A model generated the notes under the pieces. The model did not search any database and was not told the origin of the DNA. It worked only from the letters and a program-made list of their open reading frames with translations. Below are positions 2,926-15,400 of a DNA stretch of 64,000 nucleotides, piece after piece. Source of the stretch: Fidelibacterota bacterium. Its GTDB lineage: Bacteria > Pseudomonadota > Alphaproteobacteria > Rhodospirillales > Rhodospirillaceae. The translations under genes and the position numbers were made by a program. The first letter of the stretch is position 1; each line of letters opens with the position of its first letter. The stretch is taken from positions 1 to 64,000 of the forward strand of contig CANJPQ010000001.1 in NCBI GenBank assembly GCA_947476275.1, in the 5' to 3' direction.

Positions 2926-3831
2926 ATGCAACTCCGTCAGCCGCTCTCGCTCACACGCTTGCTCGCCGCGCTGTCCTTCGTATTTGCGTCCCACGCGGCA
3001 CATTCTGAAATGCCCAAAGCTTTGAAGACCGGTCAGGTGTTCAAGGAATGCCCAAATTGCCCCGAGATGGTGGTCATTCCGCCCGCAACATTCATGATGG
3101 GCTCGCCGGCGTCCGATCCCGAGCGGAAGGATCTGGAAGAGCCGCAGCATAAAGTCACCATCGCCAAGCCATTCGCGCTTGGCCGCTATCCGGTGACGCG
3201 CGCCGAGTACCAGGTGTTCGCGACTGAGAAGGGCATTGCCGGCACAGGCTGCAAAGTCTGGGACGGCAAGGAGTGGGTCAAGGAGCCCGACCCCAAACTC
3301 GATTGGCGCAACCCGGGCTTTGCGCAGAGCGACAAGGATGCCGTCACCTGTGTCAGTTGGGAGGACGCCAAGCAGTACGTCGCTTGGCTGAACGCACGCG
3401 TCAAATCGGCACGTCCCGATAGTCCCTACCGCTTGCCGACCGAGATCGAGTGGGAGCGTGCGGCGCGCGCCGACACCACCACGCGCTATTGGTGGGGCGA
3501 TGAGGTTGGCACCAATCGCGCCAACTGCGACGGCTGCGGCAGTCCGTGGGACGACAAGCGTACATCTCCGGTTGATGCCTTCCCGCCGAATCCTTTCGGG
3601 CTCTACGATGTCGCGGGCAACGTCTGGCAGTGGCTGGAAGATTGCTGGAACGTGAACTACGTCGGTGCGCCCACCGACGGGTCGGCGTGGCTGTCGGGCG
3701 ATTGCAAACTCCGCTCCGGACGTAGCGGCGCGTGGACCCGGCCGCCCCGCAGCGTGCGCGTTGCCAATCGCGACGGTCAGTCCGGGCACGCGGTCAATAT
3801 CGGATTTCGCGTTGCGCGCACCCTCGACTAG
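2926..3831 (+). CDS. Exported SUMF1/FGE-fold protein without the catalytic cysteines
   Basis: 301 residues. Residues 1-27 look like a Sec signal peptide (basic start, hydrophobic core, cleavage near SHAAHS). The rest is a formylglycine-generating-enzyme-sulfatase domain: MVVIPPATFMMGS near 47-59, ALGRYPVTRAEYQVF, YRLPTEIEWERAAR, NPFGLYDVAGNVWQW and a terminal NIGFRVART. In true formylglycine-generating enzymes a cysteine pair in the C-terminal region binds copper and oxidises sulfatase cysteines. The equivalent stretch here (RSGRSGAWTRPP onward) has no cysteine, so that activity is unlikely and a binding or structural role is more plausible. The gene overlaps the convergent glycosyltransferase gene by 4 bases. 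Confidence 0.85.
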   Translation: MQLRQPLSLTRLLAALSFVFASHAAHSEMPKALKTGQVFKECPNCPEMVVIPPATFMMGSPASDPERKDLEEPQHKVTIAKPFALGRYPVTRAEYQVFATEKGIAGTGCKVWDGKEWVKEPDPKLDWRNPGFAQSDKDAVTCVSWEDAKQYVAWLNARVKSARPDSPYRLPTEIEWERAARADTTTRYWWGDEVGTNRANCDGCGSPWDDKRTSPVDAFPPNPFGLYDVAGNVWQWLEDCWNVNYVGAPTDGSAWLSGDCKLRSGRSGAWTRPPRSVRVANRDGQSGHAVNIGFRVARTLD

Positions 3832-5636
3832 CCGATCGGCGTCGTGTGCGGCAGGCCCGCGCGGTGCCGTCGTGACATCTCCTGCAACACGTCTTCAAGC
3901 TGCCGCGTGAAGCGTGGGCTGTCGAACAAGATGGTTGTGCGCCGGCTTTCAACCAGGCGCGCGCGCAAAGCCGCGAGGTCCGCGGGATGCGTGGCCAGCG
4001 CAATCGCCCGGTCCCGGTAGGCTTCAAGGCTGGCGACGACAAGATCCGCCAGTCCAAGGGCCATGACCTGGCTGGCGCACATCCGCGACACATAGGTGTC
4101 GCCGGCGTAAGTTAGGATCGGCAGTCCCGCCCAGAGCGCATCGGCCGCCGTGGACCCCGCGCCGTAGGGGTGAGAATCGAGAAAAAGATCGGCATTGGCG
4201 AGACGCAGCAAATGCTCCTCGCGGCTCGACGTCGCACAGAACACCAGCCGTGCCGGATCGATGCCTTGCGCCACCGCTGCAGTCTGCATGCGCTTGGCTG
4301 AGGTCGGATAGTAGTCGCGGATCCACAGCACGCCGTGCGGAACCGCGCGCAGGATATCCATCCAAATCCGGAACAGGTGTGGCGTGAGTTTGGTGGTGTT
4401 GTTGAATGAACAGAAGACGAATGCGCCGGGCGGCAGGTGCCAGCGTCCGCGGTCAAGCTCACGCGCGGGATAAGCTGTCCCATGGTCCGCGTTGAACAAT
4501 GTCTCGGGCAGCCACGCGAACGTCTCGGAATAGTGCGACTGCATTTCGCTCGGAGAAATCGCCGGATCGGTAATGATGTAGTCATGAAAACGATGGCCAG
4601 TGGTTCCGCCGTTCCCCAGATATAACGCCTGAATCGGTGCGGCCCGCCGCGACGGCAGGCCGGGCCGCGTTCCCTCCGTGTACCCGCCGAGATCGACAAG
4701 GATCTCGACGTCGTCACCGCGAATCAACGCGGCCGCTTCGTCGTCCGTCGATGACCGCAAATCGACAAACCGTTGCGGCGCTGCCCGCAAGCGCTGCGTG
4801 ATCGTGTCGGTTTTATCGGGCGCCAGCGAATACGCGAAGATTTCGAATCGCGAACGGTCGTGGTTCTCCAGAATGCCGAGCATGTGCCGGCCGACCGGGT
4901 GGTCGTAGAAATCCGCCGAAAGGTATCCCACGCGAATCTTGCGCAGGGGGTCCCCCGTTGTGTTCGGCGGCGGCAAGGGGGGGCCGGCAAATCGACTGCC
5001 GTGCGCGTGCGCAATCTCCCGCTGCTCCATGGGCGTGAACCCGGGGATCGTCAGCGCGACGGCGGGATCAAGCCCGGAGTAGTTCACCGCCTTCAGCCCA
5101 CGCAACCACGCAATGCTTTGGTCGAACACCGACCAGTCGGCCATCATCTGGCGAAGGTGATAGCACAACGCTTCGGTCATGCCCGAGGCAGCGCCGTTGG
5201 CACGCGCGGCATCCAGCACGGCAATCGCGTCCGGATAGGCTTTTATCGCCTGGAGAGCGGCAGCCATCATCCGATAGGCATCCGACATCCCGGGCGAGAG
5301 TTGGATGGCGCGTTGGAGGCTGGGAATCGCCTTCTTGTATTGCGCCGATGCATGCAGCGCCGCGCCGAGATAGAAATGGCTGGGCGCATGATCGGGATCT
5401 TGAGCGAGCGCCGCATTGAGATTTGGAATGGCATCGCGATAGCGCCCGAGGCGGCACTGAACCTCGCCCAACGTCGCGCGGATCGAGCCATATTGACCCA
5501 TCGCGGGCAGTGCGCTCGTCAAAAGCGCGGCGGCGTCGGCATTGCGTCCCTGATTCACAAGCGCGCGTGCGCTCTTGATCGTTGCCAGCACCGCGGCCCC
5601 AGCGCCCGGTCCACCCATATTTCCTTGCGTGATCAT
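3828..5636 (-). CDS. TPR-containing O-GlcNAc-transferase-like (GT41) glycosyltransferase
   Basis: 602 residues from the ATG at 5636; the ATG at 5618 (596 residues) has a closer AAGGA and may be the real start. About three to four TPR helix pairs occupy residues 17-150 (for example DPDHAPSHFYLGAALHASAQ). The GT41 catalytic half covers about 233-590: GYLSADFYDHPVGRH with the expected H246, DLGGYTEGTRPG, FCSFNNTTKLTP and the UDP-sugar-binding stretch around HPYGAGSTAADALWAGLP. No signal peptide or membrane helix is seen, so it is probably cytoplasmic. Bacterial relatives are thought to glycosylate proteins with the TPRs choosing the target. No flagellin or adhesin substrate is encoded nearby, so the target is unknown. 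Confidence 0.9.
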   Translation of the reverse strand: MITQGNMGGPGAGAAVLATIKSARALVNQGRNADAAALLTSALPAMGQYGSIRATLGEVQCRLGRYRDAIPNLNAALAQDPDHAPSHFYLGAALHASAQYKKAIPSLQRAIQLSPGMSDAYRMMAAALQAIKAYPDAIAVLDAARANGAASGMTEALCYHLRQMMADWSVFDQSIAWLRGLKAVNYSGLDPAVALTIPGFTPMEQREIAHAHGSRFAGPPLPPPNTTGDPLRKIRVGYLSADFYDHPVGRHMLGILENHDRSRFEIFAYSLAPDKTDTITQRLRAAPQRFVDLRSSTDDEAAALIRGDDVEILVDLGGYTEGTRPGLPSRRAAPIQALYLGNGGTTGHRFHDYIITDPAISPSEMQSHYSETFAWLPETLFNADHGTAYPARELDRGRWHLPPGAFVFCSFNNTTKLTPHLFRIWMDILRAVPHGVLWIRDYYPTSAKRMQTAAVAQGIDPARLVFCATSSREEHLLRLANADLFLDSHPYGAGSTAADALWAGLPILTYAGDTYVSRMCASQVMALGLADLVVASLEAYRDRAIALATHPADLAALRARLVESRRTTILFDSPRFTRQLEDVLQEMSRRHRAGLPHTTPIG

Positions 5637-10610: not shown

Positions 10611-11117
10611 ATGACCGACAAGCCATTGACGCCGGCGGAAGCCGAACAAGCCCTGTGGAAGACCCTTAAGGGCACCAATGTGACGGTGATGCTGGGCTTC
10701 AATGCGCCCGAGCAGCACACCCAGCCGATGACCGCCTTTGCCGAACCGGAGAACAATCAGATCTGGTTCTTCACCCGCACCGATGTCGACCTCGCGAAAG
10801 AAGCGGAAGCCTCGACTGAGGCGCGACTGATCCTCGCCTCGAAAGTTGATGACGTCTTCGCCGACATCCGCGGCACCCTGGTCGGGCGGTATGACCGCGC
10901 ACGGATCGAGAAGTATTGGGGGCCCGTCGTCGCGGCCTGGTACCCGGAGGGAAAGAATGATCCGCATCTGACCCTGCTCCGCTTCACGCCCGCGGAAGGG
11001 CAGGTCTGGGTCGCCAAGTCCGGTCTCGTCCGTTTTGCGTTCGAGATCGCGAAAGCCAATCTGACCGGGTCCCAGCCGGATGCCGGCGGCGTCGCGGAAG
11101 TCGACTTCCGGCGCTAA
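10611..11117 (+). CDS. GSP26-like pyridoxamine 5'-phosphate oxidase-fold protein
   Basis: 168 residues from the ATG at 10611, which has AGGAGA upstream. The protein is a split-barrel flavin-binding domain of the general-stress-protein-26 type: WKTLKGTNVTVMLGF, PMTAFAEPENNQIWFFT, a central EARLILAS strand, and EKYWGPVVAAWYPEGKNDPHLTLLRF, which is typical of this family. Such proteins bind FMN or F420-like cofactors and are linked to oxidative or general stress; the substrate is not known. It is divergent from the histidine kinase gene with about 80 bases between starts, so the two promoters may interact. Confidence 0.85.
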   Translation: MTDKPLTPAEAEQALWKTLKGTNVTVMLGFNAPEQHTQPMTAFAEPENNQIWFFTRTDVDLAKEAEASTEARLILASKVDDVFADIRGTLVGRYDRARIEKYWGPVVAAWYPEGKNDPHLTLLRFTPAEGQVWVAKSGLVRFAFEIAKANLTGSQPDAGGVAEVDFRR

Positions 11118-11218
11118 CCCGGTCGCCATCGGCGGCAAACAGGGTACCGTGAGTCGACTTTTAGCCGTATTCTGAGGCACTTGTCGAACACGGACCTCAG
11201 GACGTAGACCTGCCGCCG

Positions 11219-12667
11219 ATGGAAGACTTCGCGCGTTCAACGGAGGCCGCTTCGCCGCTGGTCGTGGACGTGGACGGGACGCTTTTGCGGACCGATCTGC
11301 TCTACGAAGGTGTGGCGGCGCTCCTATTTCGGAAACCGTGGCTGTTGCCGCTGCTGCCGGTTTGGCTGCTCGGCGGCAGAGCGGCTCTTAAGCGCAAGTT
11401 GAATGAGGCCGTCGAAGTCGAGGTCGCCGCGTTGCCGGTCAACGCGTCTTTGCTGGAATGGCTCCAGGCCGAGAAGGCGCGCGGACGCGCGCTGTATCTC
11501 GTGTCGGCATCCGACGAGACAGTCGTGCGGCGTCTGGCGGCCCGGTTCGGGAACCTGTTCAACGGCGCCTATGGAAGTGACGGCAAGTCGAACCTCGCCG
11601 GCGCCAAGAAACTCGCATTCATACTTGCGCAGATCGGCGCAGAGTTCTCCTACGCCGGCGATGAGCGCCGGGATCTCGCAATCTGGGAAGAGTGCCGCTC
11701 CGCCGTCCTCGCCGGCGCGGGCTGTGCCTTGCGCAAGGAGCTATCCCCGCATGTGAATGTAGCTGGTGAGTTTGCCTGCCCAATGGCGGGCGTGATGACC
11801 TGGGTCCGCGCCTTGCGCATGCAGCAGTGGGCCAAGAACCTGTTGCTGTTCGTGCCGCTGGTGCTCAGTGGCCACGCCTGGGACGCGCCGCGTGTCCTGC
11901 AGGTGATGATCGGCTTCGCCGCCTTCAGTCTCATGGCCTCGGCCACATACCTGCTTAATGATCTCTCCGACCTCGCTGCCGACCGGCAACACCGTTCCAA
12001 TTCTCAGCGGCCGTTGGCATCCGGCGAACTGCCGTTGCGCAGCGCGTTCCTGGCTCTGCCGCTGCTTGTGCTTGCGGTCGTCGGGCTGCTGACGCAATTG
12101 CCGACGATGTTCGGCGCGGTCGCGCTGCTCTATCTTGTCGTGACGCTCAGCTATTCTTTCGCCCTGAAGCGCCGGCCCATTCTCGATCTGTTGTGCCTCG
12201 CGATGCTGTATTCCGTGCGCATCGTGGCAGGCATGGTCGCCTCGGTCTCCGTGCTGTCGCCCTGGCTCTTGGTGTTCGCGATGTTCTTCTTCACCAGCCT
12301 TGCGGCCGTGAAGCGATATAGCGAATGCTTGGTTGCCGTGGCTGAAAACAAGGCCGATCTCGCCGGCCGCGGCTATCGCGCCGGTGACGGACCCGTCCTC
12401 ATGTCTATCGGCATCGCCAGCGGTTTCTGCGCAAGCCTGGTGTTCTTCCTCTACCTGGTCGATCCGGCGTCGCCCAGCAGCCAGTACCCGCATCCCCAGA
12501 CGCTGTGGTGCGTGTGCGTGATCCTTGCCTATTGGCTCGGGCGCGTGTGGCTACTGGCCGGGCGCGGCGAGATGCACGACGATCCGGTCGCCTTTGCCTT
12601 GCGCGATCGCACGTCGCTCTTCCTCGCCGCGGCCTGCGCGCTGCTCGCCGTGTCGGCCACGGCTTGA
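11219..12667 (+). CDS. HAD-UbiA fusion; decaprenyl-phosphate phosphoribosyltransferase-like
   Basis: 482 residues with two parts. Residues about 12-180 are a HAD phosphatase domain (VVDVDGTLL with D17 and D19; LVSASDE; YAGDERRD). Residues about 195-482 are a UbiA-type polytopic prenyltransferase with the Mg-binding motif N247-D248-x-x-D251-x-x-x-D255 (NDLSDLAADRQHRSNSQRP). Such fusions are read as DprP-like: the UbiA half joins phosphoribose from PRPP to polyprenyl phosphate, and the HAD half removes the 5-phosphate. The assignment depends on the next two genes, which match DprE1 and DprE2. The three form an operon (8-base gap, then ATGA overlap). The polyprenyl length and the final acceptor are not known. 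Confidence 0.88.
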   Translation: MEDFARSTEAASPLVVDVDGTLLRTDLLYEGVAALLFRKPWLLPLLPVWLLGGRAALKRKLNEAVEVEVAALPVNASLLEWLQAEKARGRALYLVSASDETVVRRLAARFGNLFNGAYGSDGKSNLAGAKKLAFILAQIGAEFSYAGDERRDLAIWEECRSAVLAGAGCALRKELSPHVNVAGEFACPMAGVMTWVRALRMQQWAKNLLLFVPLVLSGHAWDAPRVLQVMIGFAAFSLMASATYLLNDLSDLAADRQHRSNSQRPLASGELPLRSAFLALPLLVLAVVGLLTQLPTMFGAVALLYLVVTLSYSFALKRRPILDLLCLAMLYSVRIVAGMVASVSVLSPWLLVFAMFFFTSLAAVKRYSECLVAVAENKADLAGRGYRAGDGPVLMSIGIASGFCASLVFFLYLVDPASPSSQYPHPQTLWCVCVILAYWLGRVWLLAGRGEMHDDPVAFALRDRTSLFLAAACALLAVSATA

Positions 12668-12675
12668 GCGGCGCG

Positions 12676-14034
12676 ATGCAATCCTTCCATCCGCGGCAAG
12701 ACTATCTCGCCTGGGGCCGGGTCCACCGGTTCACGCATCATGTTGCCCGGCCCGCATTCGCCGACGAGCTGCCGGGCGTCCTGGCGGCGCGCGGCACCAT
12801 GTCGCTGCTCGGCTCTGGCGCCCGGCGCTCCTACGGCGACAGCGGGCTCAACGCCGACAACGCGCTGATCGACATGCGCGGGCTCGATCACGTCATCGCG
12901 TTCGATGCAGCCACCGGCGTCCTCGACGCTGAAGCGGGCGTCATTCTTGCCGACATCCTCCATCTGCTGGCGCGGCCTGCGAACGGGGCAGGGACATGGT
13001 TCCTGCCGGTAACCCCCGGCACCAAGTTCGTCAGCCTCGGCGGCGCCATCGCCAGCGACGTCCACGGCAAGAACCATCACGGCGCCGGCTGCATCGGCAA
13101 CCATCTGCTGTCGTTCCGGCTGCTGCGCTCCGATGGCGCGACGGTCACGTGTTCGCCGGATGAGAATGCTGACCTTTTCAAAGCCACCATCGGCGGGCTC
13201 GGTCTCACCGGTCTCATTGTGTCCGTGCGTGTCGCGCTCAAGCGCGTGCCCGGGCCATGGTTGGAGCACGAGGAGTTCCGCTATGGCGACCTTAATAGCT
13301 TCTATCGCCTGGCCGAAGAGTCGCTCGCGGATTGGGAGTACACCGTCGCCTGGATCGATTGCCTTGCGAGCGGCGCCGAGCTCGGCCGTGGAATCTTCGC
13401 ACGCTCCCGTCACGCTGACGCCAGCACGGCGAAGCCTGCCGTCGCCGCCGTGGCGCCGCGCATTGCATTGCCGGTCGATCTGCCGTCCTTTGCGCTCAAT
13501 AGCGCCACCGTAAAGGCCTACAACAACTGGCGCTGGCGCTCGCGGTCCGACGAACCGGTGCGGCATATCGTCCCGTTCGAGCCCGCGTTCTATCCCCTTG
13601 ACGCCATCGGCCAGTGGAACCGTCTCTATGGGTCGCGCGGATTCTTCCAATACCAGTTCGTTGTCCCGTCACCTCACGACAAGGACGCGATCCGCGCCGT
13701 GTTGACGGAGATTTCCCGCGCCGGCATGGGCTCGTTCCTGGCGGTGCTAAAAACCTTCGGCGACCGTCCGTCGCCGGGGATGATGTCCTTCCCGATGCCC
13801 GGCACAACGCTCGCCCTCGATTTCCCCAACACAGGCGCGCGCACTCATGCGCTGCTCGATCGATTGGATGACATCGTCATCGGCGCGGGCGGGCGCATCT
13901 ACGCCGCGAAAGATGGCCGCATGAGTGCGAAAGCGTTTCAGCAGGGCTACCCGATGTGGCAATCCTTTGCGCGTCAGGTGGACCCGCATTTCTCGTCCAG
14001 CTTCTGGCGACGTGTGACGGAAGGCGCGGGATGA
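12676..14034 (+). CDS. FAD-binding oxidoreductase, DprE1-like (decaprenylphosphoryl-ribose 2'-oxidase)
   Basis: 452 residues from the ATG at 12676, eight bases after the UbiA stop. It is a VAO/PCMH-fold flavoprotein. The family hallmarks of DprE1 are clear: GSGARRSYGDSGLN at about 46-59, TPGTKFVSLGGAIASDVHGKNHH at about 113-135 (H130), and IGGLGLTG in the FAD domain. In the mycobacterial pathway DprE1 oxidises the C2' hydroxyl of decaprenylphosphoryl ribose and DprE2 reduces the ketone to give the arabinose form. No signal peptide is visible. Neighbours on both sides support the pathway call. A generic alditol oxidase is a less likely alternative. Confidence 0.88.
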   Translation: MQSFHPRQDYLAWGRVHRFTHHVARPAFADELPGVLAARGTMSLLGSGARRSYGDSGLNADNALIDMRGLDHVIAFDAATGVLDAEAGVILADILHLLARPANGAGTWFLPVTPGTKFVSLGGAIASDVHGKNHHGAGCIGNHLLSFRLLRSDGATVTCSPDENADLFKATIGGLGLTGLIVSVRVALKRVPGPWLEHEEFRYGDLNSFYRLAEESLADWEYTVAWIDCLASGAELGRGIFARSRHADASTAKPAVAAVAPRIALPVDLPSFALNSATVKAYNNWRWRSRSDEPVRHIVPFEPAFYPLDAIGQWNRLYGSRGFFQYQFVVPSPHDKDAIRAVLTEISRAGMGSFLAVLKTFGDRPSPGMMSFPMPGTTLALDFPNTGARTHALLDRLDDIVIGAGGRIYAAKDGRMSAKAFQQGYPMWQSFARQVDPHFSSSFWRRVTEGAG

Positions 14035-14771
14035 CCGGCATTGCCATCTTCGGGGCCGCTTCGGCCATCGCCCAGGACGTCGCGCGGCTATATGCCGCGG
14101 AAGGGGCGACGTGCTTTCTCGTCGGCCGCAATGGCGCGCGCTTGGACACCATCGCCAGCGATCTCAAAGCGCGCGGCGCTGCCGCCGCCACCACGGCCGT
14201 GGCCGACCTTACCGACACCACGCAACATGCAGCCCTTGTCGCGCAGGCGAAGGCCGCCCTCGGGACCGTCGATCGGGTGCTGGTCGCCTACGGTACGCTC
14301 GGCGATCAGCGCGCGGGGGAGGCGGATACAACTGTCATGGTGCGCGAGTTAACAGTGAACTTCGTCAGCGCCGCATCGCTGCTCAATCTCTTGGCCGAAG
14401 CGATGATCCCGCAGAAGGCCGGAAAGATCGCCGTCATCGGCTCCGTCGCCGGTGACCGCGGCCGGCAAAGCAACTACATCTACGGCAGCGCCAAGGCCGG
14501 CCTTGGCGCATTTGCTCTCGGCTTGCGCCACCGGCTCGCCAAGGACGGCATTTCCGTCACTCTGGTAAAGCCCGGCTTCGTGGATACGCCGATGACGGCG
14601 GATATCCCCAAGGGCGGCCCGCTATGGGCCACACCGGCGCAAGTGGCGGGCGACATTCGTGCCGCCATGGAACGGGGCGCAGCCGTTCTCTACACACCAT
14701 GGTTCTGGCGCTGGATCATGCTGATCATCCGGTCGGTGCCTGATGTCGTCTTCCGCCGCACCCGCCTGTAA
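14031..14771 (+). CDS. Short-chain dehydrogenase, DprE2-like
   Basis: 246 residues. The ATG at 14031 overlaps the upstream stop (ATGA), which settles the start over longer upstream alternatives. It is a classical SDR with a relaxed nucleotide-binding motif (IAIFGAASAIAQ), a catalytic S138 (IGSVAGDRGR) and the Y151-x-x-x-K155 pair (YGSAK). The SVAGDRGRQSNYIYGSAKA stretch is characteristic of DprE2-type decaprenylphospho-2-keto-ribose reductases. It would complete the epimerisation started by the preceding oxidase. A further gene originally started in its stop codon (TAATG) but is now broken. Confidence 0.88.
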   Translation: MTGIAIFGAASAIAQDVARLYAAEGATCFLVGRNGARLDTIASDLKARGAAAATTAVADLTDTTQHAALVAQAKAALGTVDRVLVAYGTLGDQRAGEADTTVMVRELTVNFVSAASLLNLLAEAMIPQKAGKIAVIGSVAGDRGRQSNYIYGSAKAGLGAFALGLRHRLAKDGISVTLVKPGFVDTPMTADIPKGGPLWATPAQVAGDIRAAMERGAAVLYTPWFWRWIMLIIRSVPDVVFRRTRL

Positions 14772-14989
14772 TGAACCAGCCTCTCCCATAACGACAAGGA
14801 CGTGCTGGTCGGCCAGAATCTCGTCGTGCTCCTGAAGGAGAGCGGCTATTCGAATCTGCTGGTGATCGACAAACACGCCGCCAATGTCGAAGTGCTGCAC
14901 CGTCTGCATCCGAATGTGCCGGTCCTAGTCGCCGCCCCCACTTCACCAGCTATTTCGGTCACAAGTACTTCAGCTTCGCGCCGAAATAG
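14771..14989 (+). pseudogene. Remnant of an NAD-dependent epimerase fused to an unrelated C-terminal stub
   Basis: An ATG overlaps the reductase stop (TAATG at 14769-14773) but meets TAA after six codons. One frame over, from about 14790, the sequence reads NDKDVLV-GQNLVVLLKESG and continues to VIDKHAANVEVLHRLHPNVPVLVA. This is the first beta-alpha-beta unit of an NAD-dependent epimerase lacking the glycine-rich TGxxGxxG turn. It breaks off near 14932. From 14939 another frame gives HFTSYFGHKYFSFAPK and a stop at 14989, looking like the C-terminal end of a different protein that I cannot identify. The picture is a frameshift plus internal deletions, a scar of a once longer envelope-sugar operon. 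Confidence 0.6.
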
Positions 14990-15030
14990 GAATATCGCCG
15001 CGAGGGATTGACTCTCGAAGCCGATCCTCT

Positions 15031-15056
15031 AATACTTCACCACATGGTGAAGTATT
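15031..15056. promoter_or_regulatory. Perfect 12-base inverted repeat spanning an ArsR start codon (operator)
   Basis: AATACTTCACCA and TGGTGAAGTATT are exact reverse complements separated by CA. The ATG of the ArsR-type gene (15044-15046) lies at the centre and right arm, so the protein begins MVKYS from inside the palindrome. Autoregulation by the encoded repressor is the natural reading. The promoter must lie just upstream, and the transcript may have a very short leader. Confidence 0.8.
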
Positions 15057-15400
15057 CAGAACGCTTGGATCTTACTTTCGCGGCGCTCGCCGACCCAACG
15101 CGGCGCGCCATCCTTGCGCGGCTCGAGCGGGCGGAGGCAGGGGCGTCCATCACGGACCTCGCAGCCCCTTTTGAAATCAAACTTCCGGCGGTGATGAAGC
15201 ACCTGGACGTGCTCAACGACGCTGGTCTGATCACCCGCACCAAAGCCGGACGCACAGTCACGGTGCGGCTTTCTCCCGAACCCATGAGGGCTGCTACCGA
15301 ATGGCTTCACCGCTACGAGCGCTTCTGGTCCGCGAGCCTCGATCGCCTCGCGGCGTATGCGGAGCGCCGGGAAACTGAAGCGAGGAAGAAGCGCCGATGA
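15044..15400 (+). CDS. ArsR-family transcriptional repressor
   Basis: 118 residues. The ATG at 15044 sits within the palindrome; a start at 15008 would place a non-family extension before it. It has a winged helix-turn-helix: FAALADPTRRAILARL near residues 11-26, ITDLAAPFEIKLPAVMKHLDVLNDAGLI covering the recognition helix, and a TKAGRTVTVRL wing. There is no ELCVCD-type metal site. This is the ArsR subtype that accompanies AHSA1/SRPBCC proteins. It heads a three-gene operon with an AHSA1 protein (ATGA overlap) and a GST-like protein. It probably represses its own operon and is released by an unknown organic ligand or stress. Confidence 0.92.
   Translation: MVKYSERLDLTFAALADPTRRAILARLERAEAGASITDLAAPFEIKLPAVMKHLDVLNDAGLITRTKAGRTVTVRLSPEPMRAATEWLHRYERFWSASLDRLAAYAERRETEARKKRR

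Follow-up and report, generated by a model that had tools for sequence, protein, structure and literature searches.

Three described systems for making lipid-linked pentofuranoses are the closest counterparts of a three-gene locus that we analyzed at positions 11219-14771 of a 64,000-nucleotide stretch of bacterial DNA (hereafter the window; positions 1 to 64,000 of contig CANJPQ010000001.1, assembly GCA_947476275.1, from a bacterium named as Fidelibacterota and placed by GTDB in the Rhodospirillaceae). In the three-component system of Citrobacter youngae O1/O2, the entry enzyme is a HAD (PRP)-UbiA fusion which Kelly et al. (2024) showed to be a polyprenyl phosphoribose synthase, with the HAD half removing the 5'-phosphate; an SMR/MATE-like flippase, a GT-C transferase of family GT136 and one epimerase for xylofuranose complete the system (PMC11127046). 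The same paper links homologues of DprE1 and DprE2 with arabinofuranose-containing glycans in other bacteria. The mycobacterial pathway consists of Rv3806c, Rv3807c, DprE1 and DprE2. In the Gram-negative Azorhizobium caulinodans, the noeCHOP operon contains genes for three of the four decaprenylphosphoryl arabinose steps together with a transferase (PMC5080398, PMC2443382).

The window locus shares with the Citrobacter system a HAD (PRP)-UbiA entry enzyme with the same catalytic residues, whereas it differs in the presence of DprE1- and DprE2-like genes and in having its flippase and GT-C gone. With the mycobacterial pathway it shares the predicted chemistry, and mycobacterial enzymes provide the best solved relatives for all three proteins. 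The original prediction had also counted the fusion of phosphatase and prenyltransferase as a mycobacterial match, which does not stand, as the M. tuberculosis phosphatase, Rv3807c, stands alone and belongs to a family with no relation to the HAD type (PMC11127046), and the fusion is of the Citrobacter ORF15 type. Further differences from mycobacteria are the DprE1 and DprE2 scores, which lie below the equivalog cut-offs, and an alanine in place of a cysteine in DprE1. The likeness to noeCHOP is one of description; that operon is dedicated to Nod factor and has its own transferase, noeP (PMC5080398, PMC2443382). The pathway, the HAD-UbiA fusion and their occurrence in Gram-negative bacteria are thus already published, and the suggestion that the locus is unusual for a Gram-negative genome has to be given up in view of Citrobacter, noeCHOP and a family that is common.

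The nearest relatives of the locus are six-gene loci, such as L028, L079, L124 (Xanthomonas codiaei) and L022 (a Rhizobium plasmid). The operon in the window represents a truncated copy of their layout in which the epimerase, the FAD oxidoreductase, the GtrA flippase and the GT-C transferase are missing. We found no description of this layout in the literature beyond the main text of PMC11127046, which mentions 'more elaborate systems' of Xanthomonas and Bacillus and gives them no function. Our analysis points to the locus being the front half of a pentofuranose-donor operon whose genes for export and transfer are gone, the pathway probably being broken or nearly so and the locus a recent remnant (probability roughly 0.6).

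Three intact genes and a scar

All three open reading frames (ORFs) are complete, closely spaced and located on the + strand. The first gene (11219-12667; 482 aa, ATG start) encodes a HAD (PRP)-UbiA fusion, the predicted polyprenyl-phosphate phosphoribosyltransferase/phosphatase. The second (12676-14034; 452 aa, ATG) encodes a DprE1-like FAD oxidase, predicted to be the polyprenyl-P-ribose 2'-oxidase, and the third (14031-14771; 246 aa, ATG), whose start overlaps the end of the second gene by 4 bases, encodes a DprE2-like short-chain reductase, the predicted 2'-keto reductase. The start of the second gene was taken at 12676; the longest listed ORF, from 12505, would overlap the first gene. The original prediction of three genes of these families in one operon is upheld, with family matches far above chance, tight spacing and a single direction. 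The genes appear to form one operon-like unit whose homologues make polyprenyl-P-ribose or polyprenyl-P-arabinose.

The fusion protein scores 76.3 bits with UbiA (PF01040), above the cut-off, and 563.8 bits with NF006088 (cut-off 351), while its HAD domain falls slightly under the PF12710 cut-off of 27 with 24.3 bits. Among solved structures it is closest to the M. tuberculosis decaprenyl-phosphate phosphoribosyltransferase (8j8j, E 1.3e-25). The best solved relatives of the second protein are DprE1 chains (4aut, E 1.5e-69), and it scores 349.7 bits with the DprE1 model NF053785 against an equivalog cut-off of 500. The third protein finds its top structural relative in the DprE2 of 21gq (E 5.7e-31); it reaches 179.6 bits with the DprE2 model NF053786 (equivalog cut-off 250) and exceeds the cut-off of NF005489, a short-chain dehydrogenase/reductase family. 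None of the three proteins reaches the NCBIfam equivalog cut-offs for decaprenyl-P phosphoribosyltransferase, DprE1 or DprE2. The DprE1 substitution mentioned above concerns Cys387, the mycobacterial benzothiazinone target (numbering of PMC3937683), which corresponds to alanine in the second protein. Scans of 11060-15060 for promoters (one promoter-like site, 0.7 expected) and terminators (six terminator-like sites, 2.7 expected, all within the three genes) were uninformative.

Directly 3' of the third gene, remains of two further genes were found in the region 14771-14989. The first is a remnant of the NAD-dependent epimerase gene (14771-14933, + strand), recognisable between 14805 and 14933 as residues 13-55 of 310 with 63% identity to the L028 epimerase (E 2e-12). 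The second, which abuts the first in a different frame, is the 3' end of a GtrA-family flippase gene (14936-14986, + strand; residues 122-138 of 139), with 87.5% identity over residues 122-137 (14936-14983, E 2e-5) and 82% when the match is extended to residue 138, as in the own-genome search. In 500 dinucleotide shuffles the highest scores were 22.3 bits for the epimerase and 20.8 bits for GtrA, compared to 59.3 and 35.0 bits in the real sequence. This scar and the continuation of the operon in relatives were not part of the original prediction.

Measured from coordinates against L028, about 2.4 kb of DNA is missing, and one large deletion would have taken most of the epimerase, the whole FAD oxidoreductase and nearly all of GtrA. 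The beginning of the epimerase is also damaged, being out of frame, interrupted by an early stop and shortened in its glycine-rich motif. Of the 43 epimerase residues in the scar, 27 are identical to L028, and over the same residues the intact orthologs show 27 (L057), 28 (L058) and 29 (L060, L079 and L080) identities to L028. The deletion looks recent because the fragment is as similar to L028 as the intact orthologs are, and the open frames of the three genes are for that reason no strong argument for function.

A draft assembly of 77 contigs, unchecked against reads, leaves some room for the scar to be an assembly artefact, with a complete operon in the living strain. We consider this quite improbable, as the junction lies within a contig of 284,880 bases, the start of the epimerase carries further lesions, and for neither the missing pieces nor the GT-C was an ortholog found on another contig. 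Synteny at the insertion site was sparse among five chosen relatives: the upstream neighbour gene was found in two (in G080, on a contig other than that of the operon) and the downstream neighbour in none.

Six-gene relatives and missing partners

Homologous loci were annotated in 80 genomic stretches, these being the best 80 of at least 537 obtained by tblastn (E 1e-3 or better) in named genomes, with bit-score thresholds for the locus profiles chosen by hand. The UbiA match covers both the HAD and the UbiA domain in all 80 loci; DprE1 was found in 54, DprE2 in 48 and GtrA in 31. The NAD-dependent epimerase and the FAD oxidoreductase occur together in 21 of the 80 and never apart, and all 21 also contain DprE1, DprE2 and GtrA. 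When the window and three relatives were added, the pair was present in 24 of 84 loci, with GtrA in 23 of the 24 and neither partner alone (L028, L057, L058, L079, L080, L083, L093, L096, L102, L104, L106-L109, L114, L117, L122, L124, L127, L134, L139, L141, L146 and L148).

At a threshold of E 1e-20, matches are present in 16 of the 248 genomes of the order and in 9 of the 73 of the family, the source genome being included in both counts and some matches covering the UbiA half only or lying on short contigs; neither of the two other genomes of the genus matches. Plasmid records also match, 83 with the UbiA protein and 63 with the oxidase. Complete six-gene sets were observed on plasmids of Rhizobium tumorigenes (L022) and Agrobacterium salinitolerans (L027), the latter plasmid being predicted as conjugative, which suggests horizontal spread.

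The gene order in L028, which comes from the same family as the window and has a UbiA protein 59% identical, is UbiA, DprE1, DprE2, epimerase, FAD oxidoreductase (PRK07233 type) and GtrA, with a GT-C-like gene divergent from the operon start. L057 has the same six genes with a GT-C about 5 kb off, and L058 has the same set with a truncated GtrA and a GT-C about 2.6 kb off. The GtrA gene of L058, likewise from the family of the window, is cut to approximately its 34 first residues (1539-1640, - strand) and followed by unrelated DNA, which could reflect genuine decay or a join made in the draft assembly. In the UbiA tree the window groups with L028, L057 and L058 (SH-like approximate likelihood ratio test support 99), so that the six-gene state is most likely ancestral. 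Two other loci nested among six-gene relatives in this tree, L130 and L138, are devoid of the epimerase and the FAD oxidoreductase in the examined stretch, L130 also of GtrA, and are possible independent losses.

The GT-C genes near L028, L057 and L058 belong to one family. Homologues of the L028 protein were found in 14 of the 80 loci, 13 of them among the 21 six-gene loci; 11 of the 13 listed were aligned, leaving out L146, where the chosen start precedes a stop, and L083, where there is no clean start. One of these proteins was modelled with a mean predicted local distance difference test score (pLDDT) of 85.8. Oligosaccharyltransferases and ArnT head its structural matches with VIA-align (Z ~16), and AftA, AftB, AftD and Emb chains follow at Z ~10-13; values below ~13 can reflect an arrangement shared by helical proteins, and we read no particular relationship to the mycobacterial transferases into them. 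Foldseek gave weak matches (best E 9.3e-4), a sequence search of the PDB found nothing up to E 1, and a Pfam scan of six GT-C candidates found no family at E 0.01. ORF12 was not seen in the examined part of L116, the C. youngae CCUG 30791 locus, so there was no comparison to GT136 itself. These findings support, short of showing it, an ancestral system that moved the pentose onto an acceptor outside the membrane.

The source genome was then queried with a relative's epimerase, FAD oxidoreductase, GtrA and GT-C. No epimerase ortholog was found besides the scar; the best other match, on contig C71, is only 26% identical and was rejected as an unlinked partner, scoring 64 bits with the epimerase profile compared to 556-621 bits for true orthologs. 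The FAD oxidoreductase gave no ortholog and 22 weak matches (best E 1.6e-5), mostly short and at the start of the query. Likewise, no intact GtrA ortholog was found. Only two GtrA domains above the Pfam cut-off are present, on contigs C67 (L047, 274-3637) and C22 (L048, 2009-3157), where they are, as read from the sequence, fused or adjacent to apparent GT2 synthases; that on C67 adjoins GT-C-like proteins. These two loci are likely separate polyprenyl-P-hexose systems, and both were rejected as the partner flippase on account of the apparent GT2 synthases to which they are tied.

A search of the genome with the GT-C of the relatives (P0004), up to E 1, gave no match; it had no positive control, shows little for that reason and left aside the Emb and Aft families. 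Within the window P0004 gave chance-level matches only (E 0.09 or worse), and the profile of the relatives' GT-C had no match in six longer stretches and four short loci of the genome. The statement in the original prediction that no arabinosyltransferase lies nearby agrees with the absence from the window of any transferase of the relatives' kind. As L028, L057 and L058, among the closest loci of the family, retain a larger part of the operon together with a nearby GT-C, and the window keeps a scar, this absence is likely a loss. Seen as a three-component pentofuranosylation system, the locus holds a donor synthase by homology, with a caveat on residue 261 (below), no GT-C of the relatives' kind and, in place of a dedicated GtrA or SMR flippase gene, only GtrA residues 122-138.

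The entry enzyme and its residue 261

The fusion protein is 37% identical to its C. youngae CCUG 30791 homologue over 472 residues covering both halves. It keeps the HAD aspartates D17 and D19 (the DxD nucleophile) as well as N247, D248, D251, D255, R366 and E369, the residues which were probed by mutation in Citrobacter ORF15 (PMC11127046) and which have identical numbering in the window. Judged from its sequence, the protein is homologous by descent to the PRP-UbiA polyprenyl phosphoribose synthases, while its activity is doubtful.

These features also bear on a rival reading in which the UbiA half would yield quinone, haem or another prenylated compound and the oxidoreductases would act on something unrelated; UbiA proteins form a broad superfamily, and two further UbiA genes are present in the genome. 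The original prediction had named quinone precursors as one result that would speak against it, and the sequence evidence does not favour this. Models for quinone and haem O give 18-31 bits, compared to 102-137 bits with the three models of decaprenyl-P phosphoribosyltransferase (each under its cut-off); the best solved relative is a phosphoribosyltransferase; the ORF15 catalytic residues are kept and a HAD phosphatase is fused; and the locus contains DprE1 and DprE2, as do 48 of the 80 relatives. A quinone or haem function was rejected on these profile scores and residues, and we regard it as extremely improbable.

One position sets the window protein apart. In the UbiA alignment, from which rows of 400 aa or less were left out (98 of 99 kept, window included), the window has Asn261 where all 97 other rows have lysine. 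It is the window's sole departure among the 55 columns on which at least 97% of these 97 rows agree. With the register anchored by Asn247 (Asn73 in Rv3806c), Asn261 aligns with Lys87 of Rv3806c, which contacts the beta-phosphate of phosphoribosyl pyrophosphate (PRPP) and whose K87A mutant loses 82% of its activity (PMC10994848). A second difference, Thr309 at the position of the ribose contact Gln135 of Rv3806c, is a family trait, since Thr309 is invariant across six aligned fusions. By itself, Asn261 is suggestive only as a sign of lost function.

Proposed pathway and its probable decay

In the pathway that we propose, the UbiA half would use PRPP to load polyprenyl phosphate with phosphoribose, the HAD half would strip the 5'-phosphate to give polyprenyl-P-ribofuranose, and the DprE1-like and DprE2-like enzymes would convert this to polyprenyl-P-arabinofuranose by oxidising and then re-reducing C2. 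In the ancestor, the epimerase and the FAD oxidoreductase probably modified the lipid further, after which GtrA would have flipped it and the GT-C would have used it on an envelope glycan. The deletion would have removed the steps that follow DprE2, and a PRPP-binding lysine is gone from the entry enzyme. A trapped carrier lipid is harmful in Corynebacterineae (PMC3937683), and a pathway without export should therefore be selected against; the remaining half would be under silencing pressure, which Asn261 fits.

Several observations weigh against such a decay. All three genes are intact, and the window proteins have no unique departure at otherwise invariant columns among 73 DprE1 and 65 DprE2 rows. 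Unique departures in UbiA are not rare, with at least one in 13 of 98 rows (window included), and L095 has a Lys to Asn change at a different lysine of the PRPP cluster. The window branch in the UbiA tree (0.43) is similar to that of L028 (0.35 + 0.065). UbiA, DprE1 and DprE2 occur without GtrA in the examined stretch of 21 of the 80 loci, five of these stretches being shorter than 12 kb, and L058 has no intact GtrA despite an otherwise complete set. The genome-wide search for GT-C transferases that the original prediction had called for did return five GT-C-like PMT_2 matches, on C32, C9, C8 and C6 (above the cut-off) and on C67 (below), and one SMR protein scores above the cut-off, on C31.

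Put together, these points make it possible, at rather less than even odds, that the three genes still work, with an unlinked flippase (the SMR protein on C31 or a GtrA on C22 or C67) and a remaining GT-C exporting and transferring polyprenyl-P-arabinofuranose, and that the loss of the epimerase and FAD oxidoreductase merely changed the pentofuranose added. The open frames and normal conservation are in line with this, as are the loci without a linked GtrA, which make an unlinked or other flippase possible, and the genome's other GT-C, SMR and GtrA genes, which could in principle serve the donor. There is also a parallel in Citrobacter O1, where ribose is still added and a lost epimerase survives in the form of remnants, the loss of orf13 being thought to have changed the pentofuranose added (PMC11127046). 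However, no ortholog of the cognate GtrA or GT-C was found in the genome (the GT-C search having the limit given above), the remaining GtrA domains have apparent synthases of their own, and the PRPP-binding lysine is replaced. We therefore favour a front half whose export and transfer partners were recently lost and which is probably unproductive today.

What the complete six-gene layout makes can be addressed tentatively. DprE1 and DprE2 would invert C2, and the epimerase and FAD oxidoreductase might invert a further position, giving a pentofuranose other than plain arabinofuranose, such as lyxofuranose or an oxidised or deoxy derivative. Lyxofuranose occurs in no solved carbohydrate structure according to PMC11127046. 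We hold this reading of the layout to be unlikely. If it were true, the deletion in the window would serve as a natural experiment on the loss of the second half.

Elsewhere in the window, a tetratricopeptide repeat protein with a GT41 domain of the O-GlcNAc transferase type (PF13844, 279 bits) is encoded at 3828-5636 on the - strand.

As an arabinose-donor operon the locus is ordinary, the pathway being known and widespread. An epimerase and an FAD oxidoreductase, conserved as a pair, frequently accompany the arabinose genes, and Asn261 offers a natural test of the PRPP-binding lysine of the entry enzyme. The scar suggests that accessory glycan-decoration operons can decay by losing their export and transfer half.

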